Virus record (IMG/VR): IMGVR_UViG_3300033153_005042
Location: 1 to 57,721 of that record
DNA from: a virus
Direction: 5' to 3' (one strand)
Length of the DNA: 57,721 bases
Shown: piece after piece, positions 12,434 through 26,730 of the stretch
Layout: every line of letters starts with the position of its first letter
Numbering within the stretch: the first letter of the stretch is position 1
Translations under genes and position numbers: made by a program
The notes under the pieces: model-generated
Databases searched by the model: none
Told to the model about the DNA's origin: nothing
What the model saw: the letters and a program-made list of their open reading frames with translations, nothing else

Positions 12434-12450
12434 TGCAAGTATTATACCTT
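12434..12450 (-). promoter_or_regulatory. Sigma-54-type promoter (weaker match)
   Basis: On the minus strand this reads AAGGTATAATACTTGCA. GG and GC are separated by exactly 10 nt. It overlaps the end of the MoxR gene and lies about 60 nt before the VWA gene. Confidence 0.6.
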
Positions 12451-13533
12451 TCCTCTAGCCTTAAGAATAATATCTTTTAGTTGAGAATCAGCGTCTAACG
12501 ACTTTCTAAACACGTCGTTGTAGTAAAGCTCTTTGATATTAGCGAACATCATTTCCACGGGTATTGCTTTTAAGAATTTGGTTAAGTTGTTGCCTTCTGC
12601 TTTAGTCAGAGCCTTGGTTCGTTTTTTTGCGTGTCGTAGTAAGTTGTCGCACGTAGCCTTTAAAATGTCGCCTCGGTTATCCTTAGGGTCTGAATATTGT
12701 TTGATTTTTTTCTCAATCTTACTGAACTCTTTTAAAATTTGAGTAGCTTTAAAAGGTCTGTCTGCTGATTTTCTAGCCTCCATGAAGGCGATGGCGGCAG
12801 TGCTTCCAACAATACCTATAGAAAGCTCTTGTAATATGTTTATAGGAGTCTTAACTTTAATTAGTCTGTCGACAAATTCATAAGATCTAGCCGAAGGTTT
12901 GATCTCCAAAGAGAAATCATCTCCTTTACTGGATAGCATCTCTGGTTGATCTCTAATAAAATCTACGATATCAGAATCAAATCCAGTGCTTGTTGCGTGG
13001 TCTAAAAACTCTGATACAGTGGGAGCTAACTTAATGTGACAGAACCTGTCCAAGAAGGCTGCGTCACCGATATCAGTTACGATATATTCTTCAGTATTAG
13101 GATTACAAGCTCCTACAACTACCCAACCTTTAGGTAATTCGTACTCATGAATCCTTTTGTCTAATACTAGTTGGAAAGCTGCTTGCAAAACGTCACGTCT
13201 AGCTCTGTTGATCTCATCTAAGAACAAAATACCACAACTATCAGGATCAGTCGGCAACCAACTAGGTCGCATGAACTTGGTGGCGACGTTGTTACCCTTC
13301 TCATCCTTTTCGAAGTCAGCTAAACCTAATAAATCACCTACTTCCATGTTACCTAACCTAAGGTCAATAAAACCGAAAGATTGTTTACCTGTTTTGGGGT
13401 GATCGTACGTCATTTCTTGTGATACTTGTTTAACTGATTGCGACTTACCTACTCCATGCCTACCCCAAATAAGAGTTGGGATATTAGCTTCGAATAAAAA
13501 TGGTAGTGCGTTCTTCATTGATTTGATTTGCAT
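12442..13533 (-). CDS. MoxR-type AAA+ ATPase
   Basis: The product is 363 aa. Walker A is GRHGVGKS (24-31), Walker B is ILFLDEINR (102-110), and the sensor-like GACNPN follows near 145. The layout matches MoxR/RavA-type ATPases. The adjacent VWA-metallopeptidase gene is the standard partner, so the two probably form a chaperone-like complex. It has its own sigma-54-type promoter at 13584-13600. Confidence 0.9.
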   Translation of the reverse strand: MQIKSMKNALPFLFEANIPTLIWGRHGVGKSQSVKQVSQEMTYDHPKTGKQSFGFIDLRLGNMEVGDLLGLADFEKDEKGNNVATKFMRPSWLPTDPDSCGILFLDEINRARRDVLQAAFQLVLDKRIHEYELPKGWVVVGACNPNTEEYIVTDIGDAAFLDRFCHIKLAPTVSEFLDHATSTGFDSDIVDFIRDQPEMLSSKGDDFSLEIKPSARSYEFVDRLIKVKTPINILQELSIGIVGSTAAIAFMEARKSADRPFKATQILKEFSKIEKKIKQYSDPKDNRGDILKATCDNLLRHAKKRTKALTKAEGNNLTKFLKAIPVEMMFANIKELYYNDVFRKSLDADSQLKDIILKARGKV

Positions 13534-13583
13534 GAGTAACCTTTCAAGTTAGTTATGAGCTTATTGCTCTTGTATATATTATA

Positions 13584-13600
13584 TGCAGTTATTATGCCAG
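13584..13600 (-). promoter_or_regulatory. Sigma-54-type promoter
   Basis: On the minus strand this reads CTGGCATAATAACTGCA, with GG-N10-GC. It lies about 50 nt upstream of the MoxR start. Confidence 0.7.
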
Positions 13601-13603
13601 TTA

Positions 13604-14464
13604 TTACTTCTTAATGATATTGTCCCACCTTTTTAAGTCTGTTGCTGGAACAATTCCGCAACCCTCAAATAATTGAGCTAACTGTCTTATAGAACTTTTA
13701 CGGGTACGGTACAAACCGTTCAATAAGCTGTCTAATACTACTACGTCTGATATACCGAAGTCTGTGTAAGGCGTTCGTACCAATTCTTGGTATAACTTAC
13801 ACATAGTGGAGTTCTTTGCTACTACTACTCCGTACAAATACTCGCACACAAACGCTCGTTTTTCTGCGGTACTTAACCATACTATATGTGACTTCAAAGA
13901 ACCTGAACGGAACGTTCTGTAGCGTACGTCGTACGTATCTCTAATATTGTTATTACTTACTAAAGTACTATCTAACTTTTCTCTGAAATACTTGTCGGGC
14001 GACTTTCCTCCCTTACGATAATTTATCGAACTTTCTCTCAGCGTGTTTTTAGATGTCCTTAATAATTTTATTGTAAGAAGTATCGGTTTCGGGGTCGAAT
14101 GTTTATAAATATCTAACAACTTTACCAAGTCCATATCAGCTTTTGAAAAGATTTTGGTTTGTTTGCCTTCGTCGTCCGTAACCTGCAACTCAAAAGTTTC
14201 AGGCAGTCCTTCATAAGTGTAAGGAGCGTTAACATGAAAATGAGGGACTATTGTAGTGAAAAGTCCTAATAACTTAGTATTACCGTGAAGCAATTCCACT
14301 TCAATATCAGCTAGGTCTTTTGTGATTATTTTAGCGCAGTATAAAACTCCGTAATAAGAGTTCTCAGGCACTAAGCTAATTTTTGCTGTAATTTCTTCAG
14401 GAGCGTTTCTTATGTTGTCGCTGTCGCTGTCGTAGTATAACCCTAAAATTTCTCGTAAGTCCAT
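13604..14464 (-). CDS. Hypothetical protein
   Basis: The product is 286 aa. It has an acidic N-terminus (YYDSDSDNIRN), a beta-rich first half and a helical second half with LSTAEKRAFVCEYLYG. No catalytic motif is recognised. AGGAG lies 6 nt before ATG. Its sigma-54-type promoter ends only about 12 nt upstream of the start, giving a very short leader. Confidence 0.7.
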   Translation of the reverse strand: MDLREILGLYYDSDSDNIRNAPEEITAKISLVPENSYYGVLYCAKIITKDLADIEVELLHGNTKLLGLFTTIVPHFHVNAPYTYEGLPETFELQVTDDEGKQTKIFSKADMDLVKLLDIYKHSTPKPILLTIKLLRTSKNTLRESSINYRKGGKSPDKYFREKLDSTLVSNNNIRDTYDVRYRTFRSGSLKSHIVWLSTAEKRAFVCEYLYGVVVAKNSTMCKLYQELVRTPYTDFGISDVVVLDSLLNGLYRTRKSSIRQLAQLFEGCGIVPATDLKRWDNIIKK

Positions 14465-14483
14465 AATAATCTCCTATCTTATA

Positions 14484-14741
14484 TTATGCAAGGTCTATGC
14501 CATCGAAAGTATCAACTGAAGTCATATTTACTGAAGGTTCTACTACGTATTCATTCATAGTTATACTAACTGAGATTACTTTAATTATCTGTACTGTAGC
14601 TGGCATGTTAGTTATACCTAATATGACCGATAAATCCCTTACGTAAGTTCTAGCTCCGCTCAAAGAAACGAACGCCTCCAAAAACACTCCGTCTCCTTTG
14701 ACTACGTACTCAACTGTTTTGTTTTTATTTTCCGTTGTCAC
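14484..14741 (-). CDS. Hypothetical protein, GTG start
   Basis: The product is 85 aa. The start codon is GTG, with GGTGAG upstream. It is beta-rich and ends SVDTFDGIDLA, without the family tag. It lies alone between two sigma-54-type promoters. Confidence 0.65.
   Translation of the reverse strand: MTTENKNKTVEYVVKGDGVFLEAFVSLSGARTYVRDLSVILGITNMPATVQIIKVISVSITMNEYVVEPSVNMTSVDTFDGIDLA
14487..14503 (-). promoter_or_regulatory. Sigma-54-type promoter
   Basis: On the minus strand this reads ATGGCATAGACCTTGCA. It overlaps the last codons of the gene at 14484-14741 and serves 13604-14464. Confidence 0.7.
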
Positions 14742-14791
14742 CTTCTCACCTTTATCATCACGCTCAGTTTTGAGTGCTTATTAAGTATTAA

Positions 14792-14808
14792 TGCAAGTCT
14801 CATACCAA
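14792..14808 (-). promoter_or_regulatory. Sigma-54-type promoter
   Basis: On the minus strand this reads TTGGTATGAGACTTGCA, about 50 nt upstream of GTG 14741. It overlaps the end of the gene at 14800. A small hairpin (CACTCA/TGAGCG) follows it. Confidence 0.7.
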
Positions 14809-15072
14809 CTCACCGTAAATAGCCTTTCCTAGTTCTGAGTCATATATAGCTAAGAAGTCTGAACTACACACAACCTTAGTACACTCTAACCGAATTGAGT
14901 AATCACTCCCGTAATATAACATCCCTGCTTTCGATACGCACAAATGATTGTAAGTGAGGCCTAAGAATCTATTTTTAGTGTTTTGTTTTAGGTTAGGACA
15001 CAGTATGTCTATAATCTTTTCTTTGTCCTCTTCTTTAATGTCAAAAACCATCAGTTCATAGTGATTAGTCAT
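14800..15072 (-). CDS. Small protein with family tag
   Basis: The product is 90 aa, opening NHYELMVFDIKEEDKEKI rather than FKVGD. It contains GMLYYGSDYSIRLEC and ends ELGKAIYGELV. No start is embedded here: the following gene has its own promoter, so the tag is kept for the protein. It starts inside the upstream gene's tag. Confidence 0.75.
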   Translation of the reverse strand: MTNHYELMVFDIKEEDKEKIIDILCPNLKQNTKNRFLGLTYNHLCVSKAGMLYYGSDYSIRLECTKVVCSSDFLAIYDSELGKAIYGELV

Positions 15073-15364
15073 AAATAACCTTTGGCAATTCTTGTTGTAC
15101 TATTTTTGTACACTCCGTAGTAATCCTATTCTCGTAATAATTAGAGTAAGTTGACTTACCTTTTAATGATACGTACTCAATGGTATATAACCAATCGTAT
15201 ACTGATCTTACAGGTGCTTTTACTTTACTTCTACTACTCTTTTGTAACATTGTTTTAAACTCTTTGTCAACTATTTTAAACAGTTTGTTTTTTTCGTCTT
15301 GTACAAAATAGTCTCCAACTTTGTATAACGCTTTAGTTTGTTCTTTCTGGGTGTTATTATTCAT
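15065..15364 (-). CDS. Tag-family protein
   Basis: The product is 99 aa. After a polar N-terminus it has YKVGDYFVQDEKNKLFKI, the family opening displaced by about 15 residues. It ends ELPKVIYD, a variant tag. AGAGG lies upstream of ATG. Confidence 0.75.
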   Translation of the reverse strand: MNNNTQKEQTKALYKVGDYFVQDEKNKLFKIVDKEFKTMLQKSSRSKVKAPVRSVYDWLYTIEYVSLKGKSTYSNYYENRITTECTKIVQQELPKVIYD

Positions 15365-15385
15365 AGTATTTCCTCTACCTTAAGT

Positions 15386-15583
15386 TTAATGTACTGTAGC
15401 TGGCTCATAGCTATCAAAATCGAAAATATCTGACATTTTTACTTCAATCTGACACTCTACTTCTTCTAACTCAGTTCTATAGTTTTCAATGTCAGAGCCT
15501 TCGGCCTCTATTAACAGATAGTTAATATCTTCAGCTCTCTGTTGTAGTGAAGCTAGCTCAATTTGTAATTCCTCTAAAATCAT
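15386..15583 (-). CDS. Small coiled-coil protein
   Basis: The product is 65 aa from ATG 15583, which has GGAG 5 nt upstream. A longer open frame begins in the upstream gene's tag, but the sigma-54-type promoter at 15631-15647 lies inside that extension. LEELQIELASLQQRAEDIN is a heptad-like helix. The C-terminus is acidic. Confidence 0.7.
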   Translation of the reverse strand: MILEELQIELASLQQRAEDINYLLIEAEGSDIENYRTELEEVECQIEVKMSDIFDFDSYEPATVH

Positions 15584-15630
15584 AATATCTCCAAAAAGTA
15601 AGGTAGCTTTATTACTACTGTTATTATATA

Positions 15631-15647
15631 TGCAACGTTCGTGCCAA
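15631..15647 (-). promoter_or_regulatory. Sigma-54 promoter, near-perfect consensus
   Basis: On the minus strand this reads TTGGCACGAACGTTGCA, matching the published sigma-54 consensus TGGCACG-N4-TTGC(A/T) at every defined base. It lies about 50 nt upstream of ATG 15583. Confidence 0.85.
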
Positions 15648-15914
15648 CTACTCTCCATAAATAACATCAGTTAACTCTGAGGCATGGATCAACCAATTAC
15701 AGCTGAACCAAAAGTCAAAATTGCGTGGGTGTTTGGTGTTAGCTGTTCTACAAAAACGTACGGAGTTGCGCTTGACCAGCTCGGTGTGTCCAATTGTTTG
15801 TATAGTGTTGTGGTACCCATCCATATCTTTATTCCACACAGGCTCCAACCAAGAGTTATGAATTGGTTTGCGTACTAGTACTCTATCTCCAACTTTGTAT
15901 AACGCTTTAGGCAT
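15648..15914 (-). CDS. KOW/SH3-like tag-family protein (TIQ subfamily)
   Basis: The product is 88 aa from ATG 15914, with GGGAGCGAGG upstream. It opens PKALYKVGDRVLVRKP, then has WNKDMDGYHNTIQTI, FWFSCNWLIHAS and the end ELTDVIYGE. Confidence 0.8.
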   Translation of the reverse strand: MPKALYKVGDRVLVRKPIHNSWLEPVWNKDMDGYHNTIQTIGHTELVKRNSVRFCRTANTKHPRNFDFWFSCNWLIHASELTDVIYGE

Positions 15915-16119
15915 CCTCGCTCCCATCAGTGCTTGTGTCAGACTTAGCTTTTAGCTCGCCTAACAAGGCTCTAATTCTCTCTAAGCTTTCTTGTACTCTC
16001 CGCTGTCTGGTAGGAAAGTCGTCACCTCTATCTATCTTTACTGGATCTCGTTTCCTTACTAGTAGTTCCTTCTCTGTGACTTTTCGTTTGTATTCTTCCA
16101 AGCTCACTACGTTTGACAT
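15907..16119 (-). CDS. Small charged protein
   Basis: The product is 70 aa from ATG 16119 (GAGG upstream), opening SNVVSLEEYKRKVTEKELL, a basic amphipathic helix. It ends without the tag (STDGSEDA). It overlaps the next upstream gene by 92 nt in another frame. Confidence 0.6.
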   Translation of the reverse strand: MSNVVSLEEYKRKVTEKELLVRKRDPVKIDRGDDFPTRQRRVQESLERIRALLGELKAKSDTSTDGSEDA

Positions 16120-16219
16120 AATAGGTATCCTCAAATAATTTCGTTAATTTACTGTCCAATGATTTAAAATTCTCTTTAAACCACTTCCTAAATTCATCTT
16201 GATTCATATCAGTCCTCAT
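16028..16219 (-). CDS. Small basic protein
   Basis: The product is 63 aa, started at the ATG embedded in the upstream tag. NQDEFRKWFKENFKSLDSK opens a charged helix and the C-terminus is basic. The long overlap with 15907-16119 makes one of the two less certain. Both have good translation signals. Confidence 0.55.
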   Translation of the reverse strand: MRTDMNQDEFRKWFKENFKSLDSKLTKLFEDTYYVKRSELGRIQTKSHREGTTSKETRSSKDR

Positions 16220-16418
16220 AAATAGCCTCTCCTAGCTCTCCTAGCGGTTGTATATCGGACATGTGATAATACCAATCACCACTAATAGTTGCCACTAAAA
16301 CGTCAGACTTACCTATAAATTCGATAGTTCCGATCGTTCCGATTAAATACGTATTATCAAGCCCATAATTATAACCACTCACAATTATAACTCGTTGACC
16401 TTTTTTATATTTTTTCAT
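16209..16418 (-). CDS. KOW/SH3-like tag-family protein (GTVG subfamily)
   Basis: The product is 69 aa. It opens KKYKKGQRVIIVSGYNYG, then has YLIGTIGTIEFIG and the end LGELGEAIYED. It is coupled to the upstream coiled-coil gene by an ATGA overlap. Confidence 0.8.
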   Translation of the reverse strand: MKKYKKGQRVIIVSGYNYGLDNTYLIGTIGTIEFIGKSDVLVATISGDWYYHMSDIQPLGELGEAIYED

Positions 16419-16561
16419 CCTAATAACTTTTTAGACACTTTGTCTATTTTATCATTTACGTTTCTTATTAAGGAGTCAATAGTTGTTTTTTGTTTGATTA
16501 AGGATTCTTTCTCCTTCTTTAGTTCTTGCAATTCTTGTACCAGTTTTAGTGTATTACTCAT
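16415..16561 (-). CDS. Short coiled-coil protein
   Basis: The product is 48 aa, beginning at the ATG embedded in the upstream tag. The sequence (LVQELQELKKEKESLIKQK and onwards) is an unbroken heptad helix with no tag. Both ends are coupled to neighbours by overlaps, supporting a real gene despite its size. Confidence 0.65.
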   Translation of the reverse strand: MSNTLKLVQELQELKKEKESLIKQKTTIDSLIRNVNDKIDKVSKKLLG

Positions 16562-16754
16562 AGATAGCCTTTCCTAGTTCTGACAACGGAGCCATTTCAA
16601 ACTCTTTCCATACTAAAATATCACCATTAAACATCCGAACCTGCCAATCTGGATAGAAATTATCGATTATAATTCCGCCAGTACCTACATAAAAGTCATA
16701 GTATTTTGAACATCCGTTCAGTATTATTAATACTTCGTCACCTTTTAAAAACAT
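16554..16754 (-). CDS. KOW/SH3-like tag-family protein (GTVG subfamily)
   Basis: The product is 66 aa from ATG 16754 (GAGGGAATCA upstream), opening FLKGDEVLIILNGCSKYYD. It contains YVGTGGIIIDNF and ends ELGKAIYE. It lies downstream of two inverted repeats rather than a sigma-54-type site. Confidence 0.8.
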   Translation of the reverse strand: MFLKGDEVLIILNGCSKYYDFYVGTGGIIIDNFYPDWQVRMFNGDILVWKEFEMAPLSELGKAIYE

Positions 16755-16772
16755 TGATTCCCTCATAACGTA

Positions 16773-16868
16773 TTACTTGACTTAAGTAGTCAAATAGTGT
16801 ACCCTAACATTAAGTTTATAATCTGAACAACTAAGTTCTTACCTTATAGGAAGATTATAAACTTAGGG
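16773..16868. repeat. Two inverted repeats in a leader region
   Basis: TTGACT-taagt-AGTCAA lies at about 16773-16789. A 13-bp perfect inverted repeat, AAGTTTATAATCT (16812-16824) with AGATTATAAACTT (16852-16864), is flanked by CCCTAA/TTAGGG. No gene lies between 16755 and 16869. No U-run marks a terminator. An operator or RNA structure is possible. Confidence 0.6.
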
Positions 16869-16869
16869 A

Positions 16870-17181
16870 TTAAATACTAAGTACGTCTAAAAACACGGCA
16901 GCCTCTAAAGAAGACAGTTTTCTGTGAGTAGTGTCAATAATACAACACTCTTCACTCTTCCTTTTACCTAGCTTCTCAGACCATAATTGGTAGCTTGTTC
17001 CACCGCCACCTAACAGAACTAAAACTCTTTTAATTTCTAGTATGTTAGGATTTTTGACGTTGTTTAATCCTTTAGAGGAACACCTAACAATAAAATCACC
17101 TACCTCAAATGAGGGCGTATACTCGCCGCCCAACCTAATCTCGGCAATTACTTCTTTGGTTGTTTTTGGAGCTTTGATCAT
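16870..17181 (-). CDS. Hypothetical protein, tag-family related
   Basis: The product is 103 aa. FEVGDFIVRCSSKGLNNV (25-42) resembles the family opening, with YQLWSEKLG later. The end LEAAVFLDVLSI is not a clear tag. It is transcribed from a promoter located inside the upstream zinc-ribbon gene. Confidence 0.7.
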   Translation of the reverse strand: MIKAPKTTKEVIAEIRLGGEYTPSFEVGDFIVRCSSKGLNNVKNPNILEIKRVLVLLGGGGTSYQLWSEKLGKRKSEECCIIDTTHRKLSSLEAAVFLDVLSI

Positions 17182-17183
17182 TA

Positions 17184-17342
17184 TTACCCTTTCTTCAGTT
17201 TAGAGTTCTTTGTAGAACTTGGTAATACTAATGCAATACCTATACCAACTCTTTTGACTGCCCTACAGTTAATACAAACGTTGTTTAGGTATACTGATGG
17301 ATGTTTGTTGTTACAGTTATTACAAACTTCGTAAATATTCAT
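17184..17342 (-). CDS. Small zinc-ribbon protein
   Basis: The product is 52 aa from ATG 17342, with GGAG 6 nt upstream. VCNNC and VCINC (two CxxC knuckles about 15 residues apart) make a minimal zinc ribbon, followed by a basic tail (STKNSKLKKG). A sigma-54-type site for the next gene lies within this reading frame. Confidence 0.7.
   Translation of the reverse strand: MNIYEVCNNCNNKHPSVYLNNVCINCRAVKRVGIGIALVLPSSTKNSKLKKG
17232..17248 (-). promoter_or_regulatory. Sigma-54-type promoter inside a gene
   Basis: On the minus strand this reads TTGGTATAGGTATTGCA. It is embedded in the zinc-ribbon gene and lies about 50 nt before 16870-17181. Confidence 0.65.
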
Positions 17343-17350
17343 AATATCTC

Positions 17351-17632
17351 CTATAAATATATAGCATTAGCCATATCTGTTATATATTCGTCGCAAAATT
17401 GCTCAAAAGTTACTGTTGCTGGGTCGTCCTGAAGAGCCTCTGGGCTAGCGCCTGATGAGAACGTTACATCAAAATCTGACCACCCCTCACCTTTTTTATA
17501 GGCGAATAACGTCGCAGCTTCTTCATACTTAACACTAGGAGCTACTCGAAAGCCCATCAACTTCAATATAGGAAGTACTACTAAGTGTCCATCCATCGGC
17601 AGATTAGTTATAATGAATTCGTACTTACTCAC
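17351..17632 (-). CDS. Small protein with family tag
   Basis: The product is 93 aa, with an N-terminus KYEFIITNLPMDGHLVVLP unlike the KOW type. It contains FDVTFSSGASPEAL and ends DMANAIYL. The next start is beyond the stop, so the tag is not needed for initiation here. Confidence 0.75.
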   Translation of the reverse strand: MSKYEFIITNLPMDGHLVVLPILKLMGFRVAPSVKYEEAATLFAYKKGEGWSDFDVTFSSGASPEALQDDPATVTFEQFCDEYITDMANAIYL

Positions 17633-17976
17633 AAACCCTCCCCAACTTCACAGTCTATCTCTACTTTTGTACGAGCTAACCTATTCTCCAAGGCATTCCG
17701 ATCAGCCTCAGACTCATCTGCATGAGTGCTGTAGGAACCTCCAACATACATATTTACATATAGTGTCTTTTTAATCCTTGGGAGCACTTCTACTAAGTCG
17801 TCGGAGTCTACACCTTCTGGATTATCAGTATAACAAGAACCATTAGAACGCCACCTCTCTACATCCGCACCTATAGCACCATGTACTGTATATACATCAT
17901 GCTTTACGTCTACAGCGTAGATTGTTACGTCAGCTCCAGCTCTTGTCTTATACTTTTTATCCATTGAAATTTTCAT
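17629..17976 (-). CDS. Hypothetical beta-rich protein
   Basis: The product is 115 aa. It opens KISMDKKYKTRAGADVTIYA, similar to the opening of the plus-strand gene at 27044 (KYTTRDGTEVLIT), suggesting a shared small fold. It contains DVYTVHGAIGADVERW. There is no tag. It is coupled by ATGA overlaps on both sides. Confidence 0.7.
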   Translation of the reverse strand: MKISMDKKYKTRAGADVTIYAVDVKHDVYTVHGAIGADVERWRSNGSCYTDNPEGVDSDDLVEVLPRIKKTLYVNMYVGGSYSTHADESEADRNALENRLARTKVEIDCEVGEGL

Positions 17977-18188
17977 AGTCCTGTTTCTCCTATATTTAAG
18001 AAGTTACTAACTGCCTCTAGTTGTTGGTCAACAGCGATATTTAGAGCTACCACATCCGCTGGAGTAAGTAGTTTAGTGTCTAGACAGCGTATCTCAATGA
18101 AATTAAATGCTCCACTAATACCCTTATCAAACACAAGCTCCTTAGCTGCTTGTGTGGCTGTCATGGCTCTACCGTTGTACTTAATCAT
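17973..18188 (-). CDS. Small hypothetical protein
   Basis: The product is 71 aa, helical, opening KYNGRAMTATQAAKELVFD. It sits between coupled genes. No family is recognised. Confidence 0.65.
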   Translation of the reverse strand: MIKYNGRAMTATQAAKELVFDKGISGAFNFIEIRCLDTKLLTPADVVALNIAVDQQLEAVSNFLNIGETGL

Positions 18189-18366
18189 GCCCTACCTCAC
18201 TTAAGATTGTTTCCAAGCTATAGCCGCATAATTCTATAAAGATATTATCTAGCTTAACCTTGTCTAAGGAATTTTCATACATATATTTAATGTTACAATC
18301 TGCCTTTGATGAATAACTATCGTCACTAGCTATGTAATCCATCACTATTGTTCTAATACTACTCAT
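18181..18366 (-). CDS. Small acidic protein
   Basis: The product is 61 aa from ATG 18366 (GGGAGATC upstream). It has an acidic C-terminus and a LDNIFIELCGYSLETIL helix. The function is unknown. Confidence 0.6.
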   Translation of the reverse strand: MSSIRTIVMDYIASDDSYSSKADCNIKYMYENSLDKVKLDNIFIELCGYSLETILSEVGHD

Positions 18367-18367
18367 G

Positions 18368-18673
18368 TCAGTGATCTCCCAAATCAAGGTTGCCTATAAT
18401 TTGCATACACCTGCTTATTTCTTCAACAACTTCAGTGTGCGTATACTCTTTGTTTATCGCATCGTCACCAAACACTTGCTCAAACACTTGCTCTTGAAAC
18501 AGTTTGCTTTGCTTTGCCTCTCGTTTCAATTTCCTTATAGCTTTTAGTAGATCCTTACCATCATACTCCCCACCCTTATAACTGCCTCGCTTAAGGACTA
18601 GATTAAATACGCTAGTAATTAGCTCTAGTTCTGCTTGTAGTTCGTCCTCGTCATTAAATCCTATGTAACTCAT
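18368..18673 (-). CDS. Hypothetical helical protein
   Basis: The product is 101 aa, opening SYIGFNDEDELQAELELI. A charged helical middle (RKLKREAKQSKLFQEQVFEQ) resembles small phage regulators, but no motif is diagnostic. It is the second gene after the promoter at 18979-18995. Confidence 0.65.
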   Translation of the reverse strand: MSYIGFNDEDELQAELELITSVFNLVLKRGSYKGGEYDGKDLLKAIRKLKREAKQSKLFQEQVFEQVFGDDAINKEYTHTEVVEEISRCMQIIGNLDLGDH

Positions 18674-18681
18674 ATGTTCTC

Positions 18682-18951
18682 CTAAATGTAATAGTTACCC
18701 AATTCAGTTACTAAACCTTTTAACTGGTACGTCTCGTATACTAACTTAGCTCTATCGTGTATCTCTGACATAACATCCTTAGGCGGCCAGCCCTCAAACG
18801 GCTGCCAAATATTCTCTATAATTAGCTCATCTTGCTCTTCTTCCGACAACTCAAAGAAATTGTTAGGCAAATCCCCAGACAAATAGCTACCAGAAGCCTC
18901 TAACCATGCGTCAATCTCTAATTGAGTCATTCCGTATTCATTCTTGATCAT
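18682..18951 (-). CDS. Hypothetical acidic protein
   Basis: The product is 89 aa, acidic in the first half (FELSEEEQDELIIENIW), ending LVTELGNYYI, possibly a degenerate tag. It is the first gene after a sigma-54-type promoter, with a leader of about 17 nt. Confidence 0.65.
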   Translation of the reverse strand: MIKNEYGMTQLEIDAWLEASGSYLSGDLPNNFFELSEEEQDELIIENIWQPFEGWPPKDVMSEIHDRAKLVYETYQLKGLVTELGNYYI

Positions 18952-18978
18952 AATATCATCCTTTCTATTAATGTTATA

Positions 18979-18995
18979 TGCAATAGTAGTGCCAA
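18979..18995 (-). promoter_or_regulatory. Sigma-54-type promoter
   Basis: On the minus strand this reads TTGGCACTACTATTGCA, a strong -24/-12 match, 28 nt before ATG 18951. Confidence 0.8.
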
Positions 18996-18996
18996 A

Positions 18997-19209
18997 CTAC
19001 TCGTATAGAGCTGACCACAATGCACCACAAAGCGTGTAATTCTCACTAAAAGTTTCAAAATGAAACCAGTCTGTACAAGTTCCTGCCCAATGAAGGCCTT
19101 CAGGATCACTGAGTATATCAAAACTAATAATATCGTCTACTACCTTAATAACCTTAACAATATCCTTATCTACACAGTCAATGTATATATTACCTACTAT
19201 TATGTCCAT
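18997..19209 (-). CDS. Tag-family protein (DIVKV subfamily)
   Basis: The product is 70 aa from ATG 19209 (TTGGGAG upstream). It opens DIIVGNIYIDCVDKDIVKVI, then has SDPEGLHW. It ends LWSALYE, a divergent tag. Confidence 0.75.
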   Translation of the reverse strand: MDIIVGNIYIDCVDKDIVKVIKVVDDIISFDILSDPEGLHWAGTCTDWFHFETFSENYTLCGALWSALYE

Positions 19210-19465
19210 TGTTGCTCCCAACTCTTAACAAATATTCCAAAGAATCTTCCTTTAGTTTTTTTGCATTATACATATACCACCCCTTCGAACTTATAGTAAA
19301 AAGAGAATAGTCGCCACTCTTACTCCACAAACATTTGCAATGAATGTGAAATATATTATCCGCACTAGCTTCTAGTTTAAGTAGCTTATAAATTAAGTAC
19401 TCACCTTCAGCATTAACAACATATATGTCTCCTACTTTAAACACAACACCTCCAAAAGTTACCAT
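19190..19465 (-). CDS. Tag-family protein (SLEY tag, internal)
   Basis: The product is 91 aa from ATG 19465. It opens VTFGGVVFKVGDIYVVNAE. The SLEYLLRVG tag variant is followed by about 9 extra residues that overlap the next ribosome site (GTTGGGAG). The frame upstream of ATG 19465 covers the broken gene and is not credited. Confidence 0.65.
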   Translation of the reverse strand: MVTFGGVVFKVGDIYVVNAEGEYLIYKLLKLEASADNIFHIHCKCLWSKSGDYSLFTISSKGWYMYNAKKLKEDSLEYLLRVGSNNGHNSR

Positions 19466-19472
19466 GACTACC

Positions 19473-19599
19473 CTAATAGTACAAAGCTTTAGAAAGATTA
19501 CCCTCAGGAATAATAACACAATCTTTGTTCGGTATACACAACAGCATTACCTCTCATCTTAACTTTATCTCCAACTTTAATCGCTCGTTCAATCTCCAT
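19473..19599 (-). pseudogene. Frameshifted tag-family gene
   Basis: An ATG embedded in the upstream tag (VIYGD) opens EIERAIKVGDKVKMRGN, a typical family N-terminus, and stops after 32 codons. In a frame shifted by one nucleotide the sequence continues PNKDCVIIPEGNLSKALYY and a stop, a typical C-terminus and tag. Total length fits one family member plus one extra base. It is a recent decay, a sequencing error, or, less likely, programmed frameshifting. Confidence 0.7.
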
Positions 19600-19801
19600 A
19601 AATAACCTCCGCTAACTCTCCTAAAGGAGTATACCAAAGAGAGAAGTTTTGTGAAGTCATGTAAGTGTTTTTAGTGTTGTCCCAAACCGAATGAGGATCT
19701 AAAATTACCTCAAAGAAAATCTCATCACTTCTTATTTTAGCGACCTTAACAATGTCCTTATCGTCTAAGTCAGTATAAATGCCACCTACTATTATGTTCA
19801 T
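19589..19801 (-). CDS. Tag-family protein (DIVKV subfamily)
   Basis: The product is 70 aa from ATG 19801 (AGGAG upstream). It opens NIIVGGIYTDLDDKDIVKVA, has LDPHSVW and ends ELAEVIYGD. It is strongly similar to 20566-20778. Confidence 0.8.
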   Translation of the reverse strand: MNIIVGGIYTDLDDKDIVKVAKIRSDEIFFEVILDPHSVWDNTKNTYMTSQNFSLWYTPLGELAEVIYGD

Positions 19802-19809
19802 TATTACTC

Positions 19810-20022
19810 CTATAAGTACAAAGCTTCTGTTAGTTTGCCACAAATAACGTAATCACGTAGTATACACCCACCGTACCACCAACCACTATCACTACCCTTC
19901 CACAAACCATTAGGATCTTTAATTATATCAAATTCAACCTCATCATCAGTTATCTTAGTAATCTTGATAACATCTCTATCCTTAGGATCAATATAAATAC
20001 TGCCTACTATTATTATGTTCAT
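19810..20022 (-). CDS. Tag-family protein (DIVKV subfamily)
   Basis: The product is 70 aa from ATG 20022 (CGGAG upstream). It opens NIIIVGSIYIDPKDRDVIKI, has KDPNGLWKG and ends KLTEALYL. The stop is separated from the next ATG by a ribosome site rather than overlapping it. Confidence 0.8.
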   Translation of the reverse strand: MNIIIVGSIYIDPKDRDVIKITKITDDEVEFDIIKDPNGLWKGSDSGWWYGGCILRDYVICGKLTEALYL

Positions 20023-20063
20023 TATCACTCCGAATGTTATATTAGCGTATTGCTAGGTATTAA

Positions 20064-20080
20064 TGCAAGTAGTATACCAA
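20064..20080 (-). promoter_or_regulatory. Sigma-54-type promoter
   Basis: On the minus strand this reads TTGGTATACTACTTGCA. It lies about 45 nt upstream of ATG 20022. Two TATTGCTA repeats (about 20047 and 20112) flank it. Confidence 0.7.
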
Positions 20081-20128
20081 TAATAGAATTATAGTATGTT
20101 ATACTAAGGTATTGCTATAGGTAGGTTA

Positions 20129-20353
20129 TCAATCACAGTACAAAGACTCACTAAGACCGCCAGCTTTGACTAAGCCGTCCTCAAAAAACCAATACCTAAC
20201 AACCTCATCACCAGTTATCTTAGTAATCTTTATTTTAACCCCATATCCGACAGAAAAAGAAGTAGAGTCAAAGACAACTCCGTAAAGACTTTTATACTGA
20301 CCTTTAATAACGAGTACCTTATCACCTACCTTAAATTTGCAACTACTCTCCAT
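20129..20353 (-). CDS. KOW/SH3-like tag-family protein
   Basis: The product is 74 aa. It opens ESSCKFKVGDKVLVIKGQYK, then has YGVVFDSTSFSVG and the end GLSESLYCD. It is last in its run, 100 nt before the next gene, yet keeps the tag. Confidence 0.8.
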   Translation of the reverse strand: MESSCKFKVGDKVLVIKGQYKSLYGVVFDSTSFSVGYGVKIKITKITGDEVVRYWFFEDGLVKAGGLSESLYCD

Positions 20354-20573
20354 AAATAGCCTCCGATAACTCTCCTACAGGTGTTAACCACAGTCTAGAA
20401 AAGTAGAAACCACTTCCGACACGAAACGTAATATCACCTTCCTCATCAATGAATCCAATAACTTGTATCGTATTGTGTTCCAGATCCATTGCCTCAATCC
20501 ACCTACAAGTTAGAGCACCCAATTTTTTAGGTTTACGTACTAATACTCTCTGTCCCACCTTAAACTTACTCAT
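20343..20573 (-). CDS. KOW/SH3-like tag-family protein (TIQ subfamily)
   Basis: The product is 76 aa. It opens SKFKVGQRVLVRKPKKLG, then has WIEAMDLEHNTIQVI, YFSRLWLTPVG and the end ELSEAIYGE. It is the member closest to the subfamily consensus. Confidence 0.85.
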   Translation of the reverse strand: MSKFKVGQRVLVRKPKKLGALTCRWIEAMDLEHNTIQVIGFIDEEGDITFRVGSGFYFSRLWLTPVGELSEAIYGE

Positions 20574-20778
20574 AAATAGCCTCCGCTAACTCTCCTAAAG
20601 ATACGTAACTACTTAAAGCCTTAGCATCAGCCCAATGACCAAAAAGACCACCACTCCACAACATCAAATCATCTTTAAGTACTTCAAACACAATAACATC
20701 AGCCATAATACTAGTAACCTTAACAATGTCCTTATCGTCTAAGTTAGTATAAATACCGCCTACTTTAAACTTACTCAT
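20566..20778 (-). CDS. Tag-family protein (DIVKV subfamily)
   Basis: The product is 70 aa. It opens SKFKVGGIYTNLDDKDIVKV, which joins the FKVG opening of one subfamily to the IYxxLDDKDIVKV segment of another, linking the two. It ends ELAEAIYE. Confidence 0.82.
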   Translation of the reverse strand: MSKFKVGGIYTNLDDKDIVKVTSIMADVIVFEVLKDDLMLWSGGLFGHWADAKALSSYVSLGELAEAIYE

Positions 20779-20971
20779 AAATAGCCTCCGTTAAATTACC
20801 GATAGGAGCGATATAACTTCTATCCATCCAAACCCTATTATCATACTCTTCCTCTTCGTAGGGATCTAAGTCCACCAACACCAATAACCTATTAGTAGAG
20901 AATTTAATAAGCTGGGCTGTCTTACCCTTAGACAAACCCTTAACAATCAACACCTTATTACCTTTAACCAC
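20771..20971 (-). CDS. KOW/SH3-like tag-family protein, GTG start
   Basis: The product is 66 aa, starting at GTG 20971 after GGGGG. It opens VKGNKVLIVKGLSKGKTAQL and ends NLTEAIYE. It is the first gene of a run whose predicted promoter is about 145 nt upstream (21116-21132). Confidence 0.78.
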   Translation of the reverse strand: MVKGNKVLIVKGLSKGKTAQLIKFSTNRLLVLVDLDPYEEEEYDNRVWMDRSYIAPIGNLTEAIYE

Positions 20972-21115
20972 AATTAACCCCCAAATCAGACTAGCGCACC
21001 ATGATTACCTAATATAACCATAAACAACAGTAACTAAGTAACTAACATTAGTATATACACAGTAAGAAATAATAAACATAACACTACTAGACATAATAGT
21101 CTACATAGTAGTACA

Positions 21116-21132
21116 TGCAATAATAGTACCAG
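21116..21132 (-). promoter_or_regulatory. Sigma-54-type promoter
   Basis: On the minus strand this reads CTGGTACTATTATTGCA. It is separated from its first gene by an unusually long leader with no visible gene. Confidence 0.6.
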
Positions 21133-21150
21133 TATATTGAGGTAGCTGTA

Positions 21151-21299
21151 GTATTGCTAGTTTATTACTATAGTATTGCTATAGGTAAGGTATTGTGTAG
21201 ATAGACTAAGGTATTGCTGTAGGTAGTAGGGTAGTTAGTTAGTAGTAACATGGTAGTATTGCTACTTATGATATATTGTGTATTGCTATGGTATTGCTT
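21151..21299. repeat. GTATTGCT direct-repeat array
   Basis: Six copies of GTATTGCT(A/G/T) lie at 21151, 21173, 21211, 21256, 21280 and 21291, with further copies at about 20046, 20111 and 31621. They sit in the largest gene-free stretch of the minus block (20972-21559), which is very AT-rich. Iteron-like protein binding or an origin role is possible. I see no coding potential in the stretch. Confidence 0.6.
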
Positions 21300-21559
21300 T
21301 ATGATAGATAAAGTATACTTGGTTATTGATAGATAGTATTATATGGTACTAATAGTATGGTTTACCACACTACGTATTGTGTAACCTATTGTAATCATTA
21401 GATTAATTACTAGTGTATCTTATAGGACACTGTACGGATATGGACTACGGTTTCCCTCTCATGCCCTCCCTAACCCCCGAAATCGTAAAAATACACCCCT
21501 TTTCTCTCAAAAAACCACTAAACTTTACTAAAAATAACCTTTTAACTTTATTTCAGAAA

Positions 21560-21793
21560 CTATAACCACTTTGTCGGACAATGTAAGGCATATTCTAAGG
21601 AATCTTTGGTCAATACTTGATAATGATTCTCAAAATGTCTACAGGATAGAGTGTACGTTCTATCGCTCTCCTTTAGTTTGACTTTGTATTGCTTGTACCG
21701 AGTACCATCTACCTCGTCTATTATTAATCTCAAAACAACATCGCCATCACCAAGATAACAAATTATAACGTCACCAACCTTAAATAAACTCAC
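21560..21793 (-). CDS. Tag-family protein (SLEY tag)
   Basis: The product is 77 aa. It opens SLFKVGDVIICYLGDGDVVL and ends KDSLEYALHCPTKWL. No gene follows for nearly 600 nt, so the tag is retained with no start to encode. It is the last of three similar SLEY members. Confidence 0.8.
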   Translation of the reverse strand: MSLFKVGDVIICYLGDGDVVLRLIIDEVDGTRYKQYKVKLKESDRTYTLSCRHFENHYQVLTKDSLEYALHCPTKWL

Positions 21794-21804
21794 AATTCAC
21801 CCTC

Positions 21805-22038
21805 CTAAAAAAATATAGCGTATTCTAACGAGTCTTCCTTAACTACGCAGTAACATAAGTCTAAATAACTACACTCCAAAGAAAAAGGCTCGCCATTGCC
21901 TACAACCTTACAGAAATTCTTGTCCTGAACACTGTACACTCCTAATACCTTTCTCACCCTCCTACTACGGTTACTCCCGTACTTTTCCGCATTATCCAGC
22001 TTCTCTAATAAAATGTCCCCAACCTTGTATTTACTCAT
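21805..22038 (-). CDS. Tag-family protein (SLEY tag)
   Basis: The product is 77 aa. It opens SKYKVGDILLEKLDNAEKYG, with VRKVLGVYSVQ, and ends EDSLEYAIFF. AGGGGG lies before the start. It is adjacent and parallel to 21560 and 22050. Confidence 0.8.
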   Translation of the reverse strand: MSKYKVGDILLEKLDNAEKYGSNRSRRVRKVLGVYSVQDKNFCKVVGNGEPFSLECSYLDLCYCVVKEDSLEYAIFF

Positions 22039-22049
22039 TGATTCCCCCT

Positions 22050-22283
22050 CTAAGGATAAAATATAGCGTATTCTAACGAGTCTCGCTCTAATACTCGATA
22101 CCTAGTGTCGACAAACCTTTTTTCCATAGAATACCTTTTCGGCGACTCAATACAGACACCAACAGCAGTAAATTTCACAAGCAGGACATAAGAGTAATCA
22201 AAAACTGTTACTATCTCCCTAATTAACATTCCATTGTAGCCTTCCCTAATTATTAAATCACCTACGTTAAAACTAGTTTCCAT
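22050..22283 (-). CDS. Tag-family protein (SLEY tag)
   Basis: The product is 77 aa from ATG 22283, which is embedded in the end of the upstream gene. It opens ETSFNVGDLIIREGYNGML and ends RDSLEYAIFYP. Confidence 0.8.
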   Translation of the reverse strand: METSFNVGDLIIREGYNGMLIREIVTVFDYSYVLLVKFTAVGVCIESPKRYSMEKRFVDTRYRVLERDSLEYAIFYP

Positions 22284-22569
22284 ACAATGCCCCAAATAAT
22301 TCACCGTTAACCAGTTCAATAAACTCGTTGTACGTGTAAGTCTTGTTAGCGAGTACGCCTAAACTATCACTACCACCTTGAAGAGGAATTCCATGAGCGC
22401 TTACTACTACTAAACTACTCTTAGAGTAAACCTGCACCTTAAAGTTGTAAGTAATACTACTCACGTCACCTTTAGCTAGGTTGTGTTTAAATAACAGCTC
22501 CAATACTTCCATCTTACTATCGTGATTAGGTATATCCTTAATAAGCATTTCATACACAGTTCTACTCAT
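22273..22569 (-). CDS. Small protein with divergent tag
   Basis: The product is 98 aa from the embedded ATG 22569. It opens SRTVYEMLIKDIPNHDSKME. The middle is beta-rich, and it ends ELFGALYGN. The N-terminus resembles that of 30920-31186 (SKTVYVKI). Confidence 0.72.
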   Translation of the reverse strand: MSRTVYEMLIKDIPNHDSKMEVLELLFKHNLAKGDVSSITYNFKVQVYSKSSLVVVSAHGIPLQGGSDSLGVLANKTYTYNEFIELVNGELFGALYGN

Positions 22570-22828
22570 AAATAGCCCTCCCAAGCTCTCCTAAGGGTAT
22601 TAAGCATAGTTCATCTACGTAGTTAAGTTCATCTTCCTTAGTTAGTATATGATAGTCATACACAGCATCCTTCCCGTCATGATTACCTAACTTAACTATA
22701 GTGTGTATAGTATTAGGATTATTATCAGCTCTTAAGTGTGTACCGTAGTTGTGACTTATACCTACCGTGAAGTTCACCATTACTTTGTCCCCCACCTTAA
22801 ACTTATGGGGGGTAGTTCTCTTAGTCAT
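22562..22828 (-). CDS. KOW/SH3-like tag-family protein
   Basis: The product is 88 aa. It opens TKRTTPHKFKVGDKVMVNFT, then has NPNTIHTIVKLG (related to the TIQ motif) and the end ELGRAIYE. Confidence 0.8.
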   Translation of the reverse strand: MTKRTTPHKFKVGDKVMVNFTVGISHNYGTHLRADNNPNTIHTIVKLGNHDGKDAVYDYHILTKEDELNYVDELCLIPLGELGRAIYE

Positions 22829-22890
22829 ACCTGTCCTCGCTGTTACTATTACCCTATATAGGGATTCAAAATGGATGTGTTGCCGTTTCG

Positions 22891-23130
22891 TTAAACGAAT
22901 ATAGCGTACTCTAAGCTGTCTTTAGGCATTAACCTACTGTTCAGGTAGTATTCTCCCTCAATTAGAAAGTTCCAGTCGCCAAGTACTTCTAGGCCTATAT
23001 AACCTTCATAACGTAGTATAGCAACCTGCATAACCTCCTTAGAGATAGCAATCACTTTATATACTATGAAATAGCCCTCTTTATCAGGGTTGGTGTACCT
23101 ATAAACTTCTCCTACATGAGGCTCACGCAC
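22891..23130 (-). CDS. Tag-family protein (SLEY tag)
   Basis: The product is 79 aa. It opens REPHVGEVYRYTNPDKEGYF and ends KDSLEYAIFV. It is the first gene of the long minus-strand run and lies directly behind a strong sigma-54-type promoter. Confidence 0.78.
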   Translation of the reverse strand: MREPHVGEVYRYTNPDKEGYFIVYKVIAISKEVMQVAILRYEGYIGLEVLGDWNFLIEGEYYLNSRLMPKDSLEYAIFV

Positions 23131-23175
23131 TGTACTACTCCTAAAATATTAACCATAACACTCACCAAATACTAC

Positions 23176-23192
23176 TGCAAGCTCTGTGCCAA
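23176..23192 (-). promoter_or_regulatory. Sigma-54-type promoter
   Basis: On the minus strand this reads TTGGCACAGAGCTTGCA, matching -24 TGGCAC and -12 TTGCA. It lies 46 nt upstream of 22891-23130. Confidence 0.82.
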
Positions 23193-23256: not shown

Positions 23257-23337
23257 GACTACTTTTCCAGAATTTTTTCCGTTCGGATGATTCGGATGAT
23301 TCGGACGCAGGATTGCCTTTGGCATAGAAATTGCGTT

Positions 23338-23595
23338 AGCAAGAACCGTGCCAGTTCCGCCCATAGCAAGAACCGTGCCAGCTGGAAACTGTCCAGAAAC
23401 TTGACACCTGTAAACCTTCAAGAACCGTGCCAGCTAAAAAACCCAGTCCGGATAGGCAGTTACAGTACGGGTGTTAGAATCCTGACACGTTGCGAAAATG
23501 TACATTGTAACCAACTGATATCACTACTAATTTTCGGGTGACCAACGATTAGACACCTTTGGTTAAGGATTAGACACTAGCAAGAATCGTGCCAG
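23338..23595 (-). promoter_or_regulatory. Cluster of minus-facing sigma-54-type sites
   Basis: CTGGCACGGTTCTTGC-type sites occur at 23338-23354, 23365-23381 and 23579-23595 (CTGGCACGATTCTTGC), with a degenerate fourth at 23418-23433 that has TT-GA at -12. The first three keep GG-N10-GC exactly. No gene is credited between 23131 and 23717. The open frame at 23236-23421 consists largely of these repeats. Confidence 0.65.
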
Positions 23596-23660: not shown

Positions 23661-23678
23661 ATGGCATAAGTGTTGCAT
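23661..23678 (+). promoter_or_regulatory. Sigma-54-type promoter, plus-facing
   Basis: ATGGCATAAGTGTTGCATA has GG-N10-GC. It lies about 40 nt upstream of ATG 23718. Confidence 0.7.
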
Positions 23679-24393: not shown

Positions 24394-24434
24394 TTGAGCT
24401 GGTACGTGCAACAACCGTGCCAGTTCTTAATTTT
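24394..24434 (+). terminator. Hairpin terminator overlapping a minus-facing promoter-like site
   Basis: GAGCTGGTACG pairs with CGTGCCAGTTC around a 9-nt loop, followed by TTAATTTT. The right arm and loop contain the minus-facing GG-N10-GC site (24407-24423). Confidence 0.6.
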
Positions 24435-24530: not shown

Positions 24531-24548
24531 TTGGCACACATACTGCAT
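24531..24548 (+). promoter_or_regulatory. Sigma-54-type promoter, plus-facing
   Basis: TTGGCACACATACTGCAT is a strong -24/-12 match, about 30 nt before the GTG start at 24576. Confidence 0.8.
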
Positions 24549-25130: not shown

Positions 25131-25170
25131 AGCAAGAACTGTGCCAGTTATTACTGGCGCTTTCTTCTGT
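25131..25170 (+). terminator. Hairpin terminator overlapping a minus-facing promoter-like site
   Basis: GTGCCAGT-TATT-ACTGGCGC is followed by TTTCTTCT. The segment 25131-25147 also reads CTGGCACAGTTCTTGCT on the minus strand, with GG-N10-GC. Confidence 0.6.
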
Positions 25171-25281: not shown

Positions 25282-25299
25282 ATGGCATGGGTTGTGCAT
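25282..25299 (+). promoter_or_regulatory. Sigma-54-type promoter, plus-facing
   Basis: ATGGCATGGGTTGTGCAT has GG-N10-GC. It is followed by ATAATAGTGAAAGGAAGG and the start at 25327. Confidence 0.7.
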
Positions 25300-26169: not shown

Positions 26170-26214
26170 AGCAAGAAGTATGCCAGTTAACGCTGGTATA
26201 TTTTCTACAACCTA
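26170..26214 (+). terminator. Hairpin terminator overlapping a minus-facing promoter-like site
   Basis: TGCCAG-ttaacg-CTGGTA is followed by TATTTTCT. The segment 26170-26186 reads CTGGCATACTTCTTGC on the minus strand. Confidence 0.55.
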
Positions 26215-26323: not shown

Positions 26324-26341
26324 TTGGCACACAATCTGCAT
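26324..26341 (+). promoter_or_regulatory. Sigma-54-type promoter, plus-facing
   Basis: TTGGCACACAATCTGCAT keeps GG-N10-GC, about 40 nt before ATG 26384. Confidence 0.8.
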
Positions 26342-26722: not shown

Positions 26723-26730
26723 CCTCCTTT

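Follow-up and report, generated by a model that had tools for sequence, protein, structure and literature searches.

Sigma-54-type sites in the phage window

The window is the whole 57,721-nt stretch of IMG/VR record IMGVR_UViG_3300033153_005042, probably a fragment of a phage genome, in which the genes for a DUF2201/VWA protein, a MoxR-type AAA+ protein and GP88 are accompanied by ~30 sigma-54-type sites that match the consensus far beyond chance. The sites combine a -24 TGGCAC and a -12 TTGCW element with a fixed 5-bp spacer, as sigma-54 promoters do, and comprise two classes: class A (14 sites) has a promoter-like position, 22-55 nt ahead of start codons and with a ribosome-binding site (RBS); class B (11 sites) is nearer to the consensus and lies at gene ends and in spacers, a placement unlike that of promoters, with no RBS and start at promoter distance. 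Scores derive from a matrix of 34 E. coli ChIP-seq sites (PMC4591121), independent of the window, and sites scoring at least 14 are considered strong. The class A sites are:

12434..12449, minus: AGGTATAATACTTGCA, weakest match, 55 nt before the TTG of 11080-12378 (DUF2201/VWA protein)
13584..13600, minus: CTGGCATAATAACTGCA, 50 nt before the ATG of 12442-13533 (MoxR-type AAA+), score 19.1
14487..14503, minus: ATGGCATAGACCTTGCA, 22 nt before the ATG of 13604-14464, score 16.3
14792..14808, minus: TTGGTATGAGACTTGCA, 50 nt before the GTG of 14484-14741, score 15.6
15631..15647, minus: TTGGCACGAACGTTGCA, 47 nt before RBS and ATG, score 19.3
17232..17248, minus: TTGGTATAGGTATTGCA, 50 nt before the ATG of 16870-17181, score 14.8
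18979..18995, minus: TTGGCACTACTATTGCA, 27 nt before the ATG of 18682-18951, score 19.5
20064..20080, minus: TTGGTATACTACTTGCA, 41 nt before the ATG of the 19810-20028 frame, score 15.3
23176..23192, minus: TTGGCACAGAGCTTGCA, 45 nt before the GTG of 22891-23130, score 17.6
23661..23677, plus: ATGGCATAAGTGTTGCA, GP88 gene, RBS and ATG ~41 nt downstream, score 18.2
24531..24547, plus: TTGGCACACATACTGCA, RBS/start ~26 nt downstream, score 18.9
25282..25298, plus: ATGGCATGGGTTGTGCA, 28 nt before the ATG of 25327-25578, score 14.4
26324..26340, plus: TTGGCACACAATCTGCA, 43 nt before the ATG of 26384-26722, score 18.6
26882..26898, plus: TTGGCATACTACCTGCA, 26 nt before the ATG at 26925, score 17.2

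The ten sites named in a preliminary description of this DNA are all present where it placed them, on the minus strand, and 15631 reads as quoted there. Nine of the ten precede a start codon at the claimed 20-60 nt (RBS and start 22-55 nt downstream), the exception being 21116, whose first candidate start is 113 nt away; the count of at least ten holds, but the set was incomplete, lacking five rightward promoter-like sites and the 11 class B sites (23338-28186).

With the E. coli matrix, the window contains 29 strong sites against 0.40 expected, and 30 of the 32 matches scoring at least 12 fall within 12.4-28.3 kb. Under dinucleotide shuffles, the strict YTGGYAYN5TTGCW occurs 19 times against 0.05 expected and TGGCACN5TTGCW nine times against 0.02. 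The comparison with shuffled controls that had been proposed therefore speaks for the full consensus, on which the weight rests, and much less for the bare GG-N10-GC, whose 196 occurrences against 143 expected show that dinucleotides alone prove little. Moreover, an RBS and a start lie 8-75 nt downstream of 48% of the window sites, against 4% when the sites are read backwards and 13% for random positions, which bears out the claimed enrichment upstream of genes. A sigma-70 reading of class A was discarded, as -35 and -10 matches show neither a consistent spacing nor an enrichment. The upstream repeats TCCGGATAGG and GTGTCAATT are present in the window.

No DNA similarity between the window and cultured phages was found, and the region with the sites is absent from the terminase relatives L001-L005; the contig G001 is identical to part of the window and begins at position 28361.

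RpoN and activator genes

No RpoN gene (PF04552) was found in 49 records, in a search that was positive for control genomes. In the window, itself probably a fragment, neither an RpoN gene nor a gene with the activator domain PF00158 was found, and the suggested phage-encoded RpoN or enhancer-binding activator is not supported; across the 49 records the activator domain gives one match, which is weak. The AAA+ gene at 12442-13533 codes for a MoxR-type ATPase (phrog_1297, E 8e-64) whose match to the sigma-54 activator domain falls short of that domain's cut-off, and scans for relatives of this protein and of the 13604-14464 protein yielded one distant relative or none. NtrC was considered as a common activator and rejected: its boxes occur in viral records L030 and L039, yet they are not enriched around 48 elements.

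Class B and other sites

The class B sites and the remaining elements of the region are:

23338..23354, minus: class B CTGGCACGGTTCTTGCT, no nearby gene start, score 20.1
23365..23381, minus: class B CTGGCACGGTTCTTGCT, tandem with 23338, score 20.1
23417..23433, minus: class B CTGGCACGGTTCTTGAA, in tandem, score 16.3
23579..23595, minus: class B CTGGCACGATTCTTGCT, score 21.6
24407..24423, minus: class B CTGGCACGGTTGTTGCA, 26 nt past the GP88 stop, within an RNA hairpin, 125 bp from class A 24532, score 20.2
25131..25147, minus: class B CTGGCACAGTTCTTGCT, 5 nt past the stop of 24688-25125, within a hairpin, 152 bp from class A 25283, score 19.8
26170..26186, minus: class B CTGGCATACTTCTTGCT, past the stop of 25590-26165, within a hairpin, 155 bp from class A 26325, score 19.3
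26729..26745, minus: class B TTGGCACACTTCTTGAA, past the stop of 26384-26722, within a hairpin, 154 bp from class A 26883, score 16.0
27997..28013, minus: class B CTGGCATGGTACTTGCA, 27773-28560 spacer, score 19.3
28116..28132, minus: class B CTGGCATGGTTCTTGCT, 27773-28560 spacer, score 19.3
28186..28202, minus: class B TTGGCATGATACTTGCT, 27773-28560 spacer, score 19.9
28148..28164, plus: site TTGGTACGTATATTGCA, between class B 28116 and 28186, no nearby gene start, score 16.1
21116..21132, minus: site CTGGTACTATTATTGCA, class uncertain, in a spacer, no start within 75 nt, score 16.6
24142..24158, minus: site TTGGCACGATTTTTGCA, antisense within the GP88 coding sequence, score 22.5, the window's best
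16527..16543, minus: site CTGGTACAAGAATTGCA, compact coding region, no clear downstream start, score 16.9
23319..23335, plus: site TTGGCATAGAAATTGCG, 2 nt from the facing class B 23338 (near face-to-face pair), score 15.3
27858..27872, plus: Fur-box-like palindrome TGAGAATCATTCTCA, in the spacer shared with class B sites

Face-to-face pairs across viruses

The same half-sites occur face to face in other viruses. Specifically, TGGCAC-N5-TTGCW-(1-8)-WGCAA-N5-GTGCCA is found in at least 120 viral stretches, with no viral pair when N5 is changed to N4 or N6, and only twice, both times as a perfect hairpin, in the 257 Gb that all GTDB representatives, bacterial and archaeal, make up. The viral pairs among the matches listed come from 48 unrelated clusters of 36-63% G+C, and in 48 whole records the site occurs 279 times and its reversed pattern 3 times (table totals summed). 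Even the columns that the pattern leaves free still follow the sigma-54 preference, with G (.65) or A (.34) and no T just after TGGCAC and T (.55) just before it. The sites gather in long spacers that also contain other repeats. The window holds class B singles and tandems and one near face-to-face pair only (23319/23338), so that class B is tied to the virus-wide pairs by motif and non-promoter placement.

One pair cluster is the cultured Pakpunavirus of Pseudomonas aeruginosa, in which both half-sites are kept and the spacers drift: when Pakpunavirus is compared with distant Pseudomonas phages, the invariant columns number 16 of 22 in the consensus, 0 of 10 in the spacers and 57 of 467 elsewhere. 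The 17-mer of window site 15631 also occurs in Pseudomonas phage PAK_P1, whose face-to-face pair lies at 55588-55621.

Putative promoters and a possible trap for sigma-54

In E. coli, sigma-54 polymerase occupies most of its sites in a transcriptionally inactive state, and a decoy role has been suggested for them (PMC4591121). On balance, it appears plausible that the phage uses host sigma-54 at the class A promoters and binds it at the class B sites and pairs, where it would probably be held inactive. By sequence and position, class A would provide sigma-54 promoters for accessory operons, with initiation by the host RpoN, assumed to be present in the host of the window, and an activator supplied by the host or by an unseen phage gene. 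The promoter role proposed earlier suits about 14 sites positioned as promoters of the accessory region and does not extend to the 11 further sites. Class B, like the pairs and arrays of other viruses, would consist of putative binding sites not positioned for mRNA, which may keep sigma-54 polymerase in an activator-dependent, inactive closed complex on the replicating phage DNA; the result would be a trap for the sigma-54 holoenzyme and possibly also a local roadblock at gene ends. RpoN binding, titration and a benefit to the phage are what we infer from these sequences. More tentatively, the virus-wide pairs and arrays may capture host sigma-54 polymerase in infection as a multicopy trap, which would shut off the sigma-54 regulon (nitrogen, motility, pili) or free core polymerase without any inhibitor protein; overlapping footprints may prevent both halves of one pair from being filled at once.

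Alternatively, all sites, including the pairs and class B, could be ordinary sigma-54 promoters that yield antisense, non-coding or overlapping transcripts once a host activator is on. Every site is a competent -24/-12 sequence, the class B and class A sites of the window form divergent pairs 125-155 bp apart, a usual geometry for a shared enhancer, and in phage PAK_P3, which produces many antisense RNAs (PMC4933390), two divergent sites lie 149 bp from each other in what looks like the counterpart of the spacer with the PAK_P1 element. This account is nevertheless unlikely, given that a gene start follows 10% of paired and 18% of single sites in other viruses, no closer than random positions, that face-to-face sites 1-8 bp apart imply immediate polymerase collision, and that activator genes are nearly absent and NtrC boxes not enriched around the pairs.

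The sites could also be upstream elements that tune nearby sigma-70 promoters, with a resident sigma-54 complex acting as a roadblock or repressor, instead of titrating the pool. Sigma-70 promoter matches are enriched around the viral pairs (28 against 5.5), the sites of L100 and G012 lie immediately upstream of TTGACA promoters, and in PAK_P1 the face-to-face element is adjoined by TTGACA-type early promoters, which in the passages found are described as 41-nt repeats with a sigma-70 TTGACA-N17-TAgAAT (PMC4309531). Such tuning is likewise unlikely: sigma-70 promoter matches show no enrichment in the window region (43 against 52.6), and the number of sites and their dense arrays exceed the needs of one local switch.

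Less probable still is another binder, namely a phage regulator or a protein of replication or partition whose recognition sequence happens to coincide with the sigma-54 consensus. The clustering in long spacers with other repeats resembles origin or operator arrays, and PAK_P1 sites lie also in a region matching its relatives' terminal repeat; however, the 48 unrelated clusters share one asymmetric, monomeric consensus and tolerate identical changes in it (C/T at 4 and 6, G>A at 7, A/T at the end), phage regulators evolve apart far more quickly, loops of 1-8 bp, singles and tandems alike would not suit a dimeric operator, and the E. coli sigma-54 matrix fits the sites.

Lastly, RNA or DNA hairpins (terminators, processing sites, cruciforms) are a very unlikely explanation of class B and the pairs: four of the eleven class B sites lie in strong gene-end hairpins (z -2.8 to -4.5; only one, at 25141-25160, passes the terminator scan) and could serve termination, but the open-spacer sites do not fold (z -0.3 to +0.7 in three regions tested), and the viral pairs are rejected as hairpins because their N5 spacers are less complementary than partner-shuffled ones (1.31 of 5 against 1.78 +- 0.11), the opposite of hairpin selection.

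Relation to known systems

To our knowledge, most models of phage transcription leave sigma-54 out. The window sites share with bacterial sigma-54 promoters (E. coli set, PMC4591121) the consensus, the fixed GG-N10-GC spacing, the tolerated substitutions and, for class A, the position relative to start codons; they differ in that ~14 promoter-like sites crowd into 16 kb of a phage for which no activator gene is known, and in that the GTDB scan gave no bacterial counterpart of class B and the face-to-face pairs beyond the two perfect-hairpin pairs. The earlier remark that wholesale sigma-54 use would be very unusual for a phage stands, with one partial precedent: Pseudomonas phage YuA has three phage promoters annotated '-24/-12' with measured activity (NC_010116). 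These three lie mostly in or before structural genes and form no arrays or pairs, and none matches TGGYA-N6-TGCW in the scan. The 41-nt repeats of PAK_P1-like phages are likewise repeated regulatory elements in spacers of the same phages, differing in their sigma-70 consensus, and the passages found make no mention of sigma-54 sites (PMC4309531).

Nucleic-acid decoys or transcription-factor sponges, raised for sigma-54 sites in PMC4591121, resemble the present case in having many sites without regulated genes; the class B sites of the window combine non-promoter placement with high matrix scores, their affinity being predicted from sequence. The open literature searched yielded no viral decoy directed at a sigma factor. 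A phage with ~14 sigma-54-type promoters would make its accessory genes respond to signals of nutrients or stress in the host, and the short element, present in dozens of unrelated viruses and rare to absent in bacterial genomes, may be a protein-free means of seizing a host regulator; together, the sites suggest use or capture of host sigma-54 by many phages. Since well-studied P. aeruginosa phages (PAK_P1, PaP1, JG004, K5 group) carry the element, its function is testable now.

Sigma-54 sites in the window

All ten GG-N10-GC sites between 12434 and 23192 that the preliminary description read as sigma-54-type promoters are present, all on the minus strand. The bare GG-N10-GC motif is only weakly enriched in the window (196 versus 143 expected), whereas the enrichment of the full consensus is upheld, with YTGGYAYN5TTGCW occurring 19 times (0.05 expected) and TGGCACN5TTGCW 9 times (0.02 expected). 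To avoid circularity, the weight matrix was derived solely from 34 sigma-54 ChIP-seq sites of E. coli that PMC4591121 lists; 29 window sites score at least 14, versus 0.40 in shuffles and a bottom decile of up to 13.4 for the E. coli set itself, and 30 of the 32 sites scoring at least 12 fall within 12.4-28.3 kb. The identity, number, spacing and conservation of the sites are direct observations, as are their two kinds of placement:

Class A, promoter-like, 14 sites: leftward, 12434-23176; rightward, 23662, 24532, 25283, 26325 and 26883
Class B, not placed as promoters, 11 sites: 23338-28186, all on the minus strand

Class A sites (consensus tTGGcAt/c-N5-tTGCATta) precede a ribosome-binding site and start codon located 22-55 nt downstream, and the 14 nt that follow them are 79% A+T versus 61.5% overall. 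Class B sites read CTGGCACGGTTCTTGCT or near variants, mostly score above class A, are followed by DNA of 59% A+T without an A+T-rich stretch, and lie in spacers or immediately past the stop codon of a rightward gene (24407, 25131, 26170, 26729). Between each gene-end site and the nearest following class A site lie 125-155 bp, the two sites pointing away from each other, and the words TCCGGATAGG and GTGTCAATT, possible activator sites, recur in this interval. At four gene-end sites the RNA folds into a strong hairpin that includes the site (z -2.8 to -4.5); none was found at the tested spacer class B sites.

Pairs and arrays in other viruses

Scanning viral contigs for AGCAAGAACCGTGCCAGY yields 27 stretches. 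Several of the viral stretches carry arrays. L020 has five sites, mostly spaced by ~55 bp; L026 and L027/L029 each have three face-to-face pairs with a 54-bp period; L022, L030 and L039 also bear arrays, and the record G012 has repeated intergenic modules with 26 sites in all. The face-to-face pair TGGCAC-N5-TTGCW-N(1-8)-WGCAA-N5-GTGCCA is found in at least 120 viral stretches and back-to-back pairs in 35, while face-to-face pairs with N4 or N6 spacers number zero in viral contigs. GTDB representative genomes contain two pairs, both perfect palindromes and therefore hairpins; for the viral pairs, selection for hairpins is rejected, since the two spacers of a pair complement each other less (1.31 of 5) than they do with shuffled partners (1.78 +- 0.11).

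The pair loci comprise 106 distinct elements in 48 clusters without long mutual DNA similarity, as counted on the flanks retrieved around them, at 36-63% G+C. TGGCAC is followed by G (.65) or A (.34), never by T, and preceded by T (.55), so that the unconstrained columns agree with the sigma-54 preference. The 48 whole records contain 279 TGGYAYN5TTGCW matches versus 3 of the reversed pattern (totals summed from a table), about 120 of the 279 being the pairs by which the records were found. Paired sites lie at gene starts in 10% of cases, single sites in 18% and random positions in 13%, from which class A differs; by a mechanical ORF test, 17 of 48 elements are wholly outside ORFs of at least 60 codons.

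Fur-box-like palindromes are enriched near pairs (11 versus 1.6), but many of these come from a single stretch, L129, which leaves a wider decoy set covering further host regulators as no more than a lead. Perfect or near-perfect examples close to sigma-54 sites in unrelated viruses are:

L129, 2917-3280
L030, 3972 and 4092
L039, 10821
the window, 27858

L129 carries about eight such palindromes within 350 bp. NtrC-type boxes (TGCACC-N5-GGTGCA) adjoin sigma-54 sites at L030:3767-3885 and L039:10563, with no enrichment across the whole pair set, and palindromes of the form GTGAGNNCTCAC or GTAAGTGCTTAC recur near sigma-54 sites of several unrelated viruses (L022:1893-2030, L147:6310-6520, L030:3900). 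A GP88-family protein (window 23670-24380) is common to three site-rich viral contigs without other relationship (the window, L043/L044 of G012, L032), and the 26384-26722 protein is also found in the site-bearing contig L042.

Cultured Pseudomonas phages

One of the 48 clusters is Pakpunavirus of P. aeruginosa. In PAK_P1, the 624-bp spacer before a SprT-like gene contains a pair (55588/55606) and a single site, TTGGCACGAACGTTGCA at 55436, the identical 17-mer to window site 15631. More sites are found between 67.9 and 68.9 kb, where the sequence matches the termini or repeat regions of relatives, C11 and PaP1 among them; the terminal repeats of such phages are described in PMC5175280 and PMC3652863. 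Five less closely related phages, whose hosts are P. aeruginosa, P. putida, P. protegens and P. plecoglossicida, match just 12-16% of a 1-kb query, namely the pair region and the G+C-rich block behind it. In the alignment including these phages, invariant columns are 16/22 in the pair consensus, 0/10 in the spacers and 57/467 elsewhere. The block itself (~50 bp, CTCCCTGTTTGTCTCCGGTGCTCGG...CGTTGCCCGCC; 1110-1180 of the PAK_P1 stretch L174, PAK_P1 about 55630-55700) is strongly conserved across the distant phages and could be an RNA or protein site. PAK_P3 belongs to a sister genus; its divergent pair (50797-, 50946+) lies in a spacer that, judged by gene order, looks equivalent to the one in PAK_P1. 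The passages searched in the literature on Pakpunavirus/PAK_P3-type phages describe sigma-70 repeats, small RNAs and the host regulator SrpA, and contain no mention of sigma-54.

Sigma-54 machinery and proposed mechanism

The suggestion of a phage-encoded RpoN or activator finds no counterpart in the window, a probable genome fragment, from which PF04552 (RpoN) and PF00158 (activator) are absent; among the 48 whole records, none has an RpoN gene and the activator domain gives one weak match. The AAA+ protein encoded by 12442-13533 is a member of a MoxR-type phage family and adjoins a VWA/DUF2201 protein. The 287-aa product of 7050-7913 (minus strand) has a helix-turn-helix of sigma-70 region-4 type (PF04545, 1.6e-10) rather than of sigma-54, and is possibly a phage regulator or divergent sigma factor.

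Sigma-54 polymerase occupies its sites without an activator but needs the action of one to become active. The majority of sigma-54-bound sites in E. coli are inactive (PMC4591121). Judging from sequence, class A sites would be promoters used by host RpoN, and class B sites, pairs and arrays putative holders of sigma-54 polymerase, which may become a trap once phage DNA multiplies. Alternatively, they may act as local roadblocks adjoining sigma-70 promoters, matches to which are enriched around pairs (28 versus 5.5). That bacterial genomes, with the prophages they contain, have so few pairs is weakly consistent with an element that is of use in phage DNA during replication.

The window genome

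The window is an entire IMG/VR virus record and comes from a contractile-tailed phage:

34325-35938, terminase
41464-42780, major capsid protein
53120-54913, tail sheath

It is probably a genome fragment, because the 57,721 bp carry no end repeats. Its terminase is below 60% identical to that of every isolate, and the site-bearing region has no DNA-level match to cultured phages. A second IMG/VR record, 3300033143_002708, is identical over its full length to 28361-57721 and is therefore a sub-contig of the same genome. A Group I intron (Rfam RF00028, 77.8 bits) followed by an ORF resembling a LAGLIDADG-type homing endonuclease (37431-38412) lies directly upstream of the structural gene 38579-40171. 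The spacer 21130-21400 contains numerous imperfect GTATTGCTATAGGTA repeats. Small paralogous proteins (70-92 aa, mutual identity 27-49%), many with an (E/K)AIYE terminus, are scattered over the leftward accessory region:

6414-9276
15648-15926
20343-20573
22562-22828
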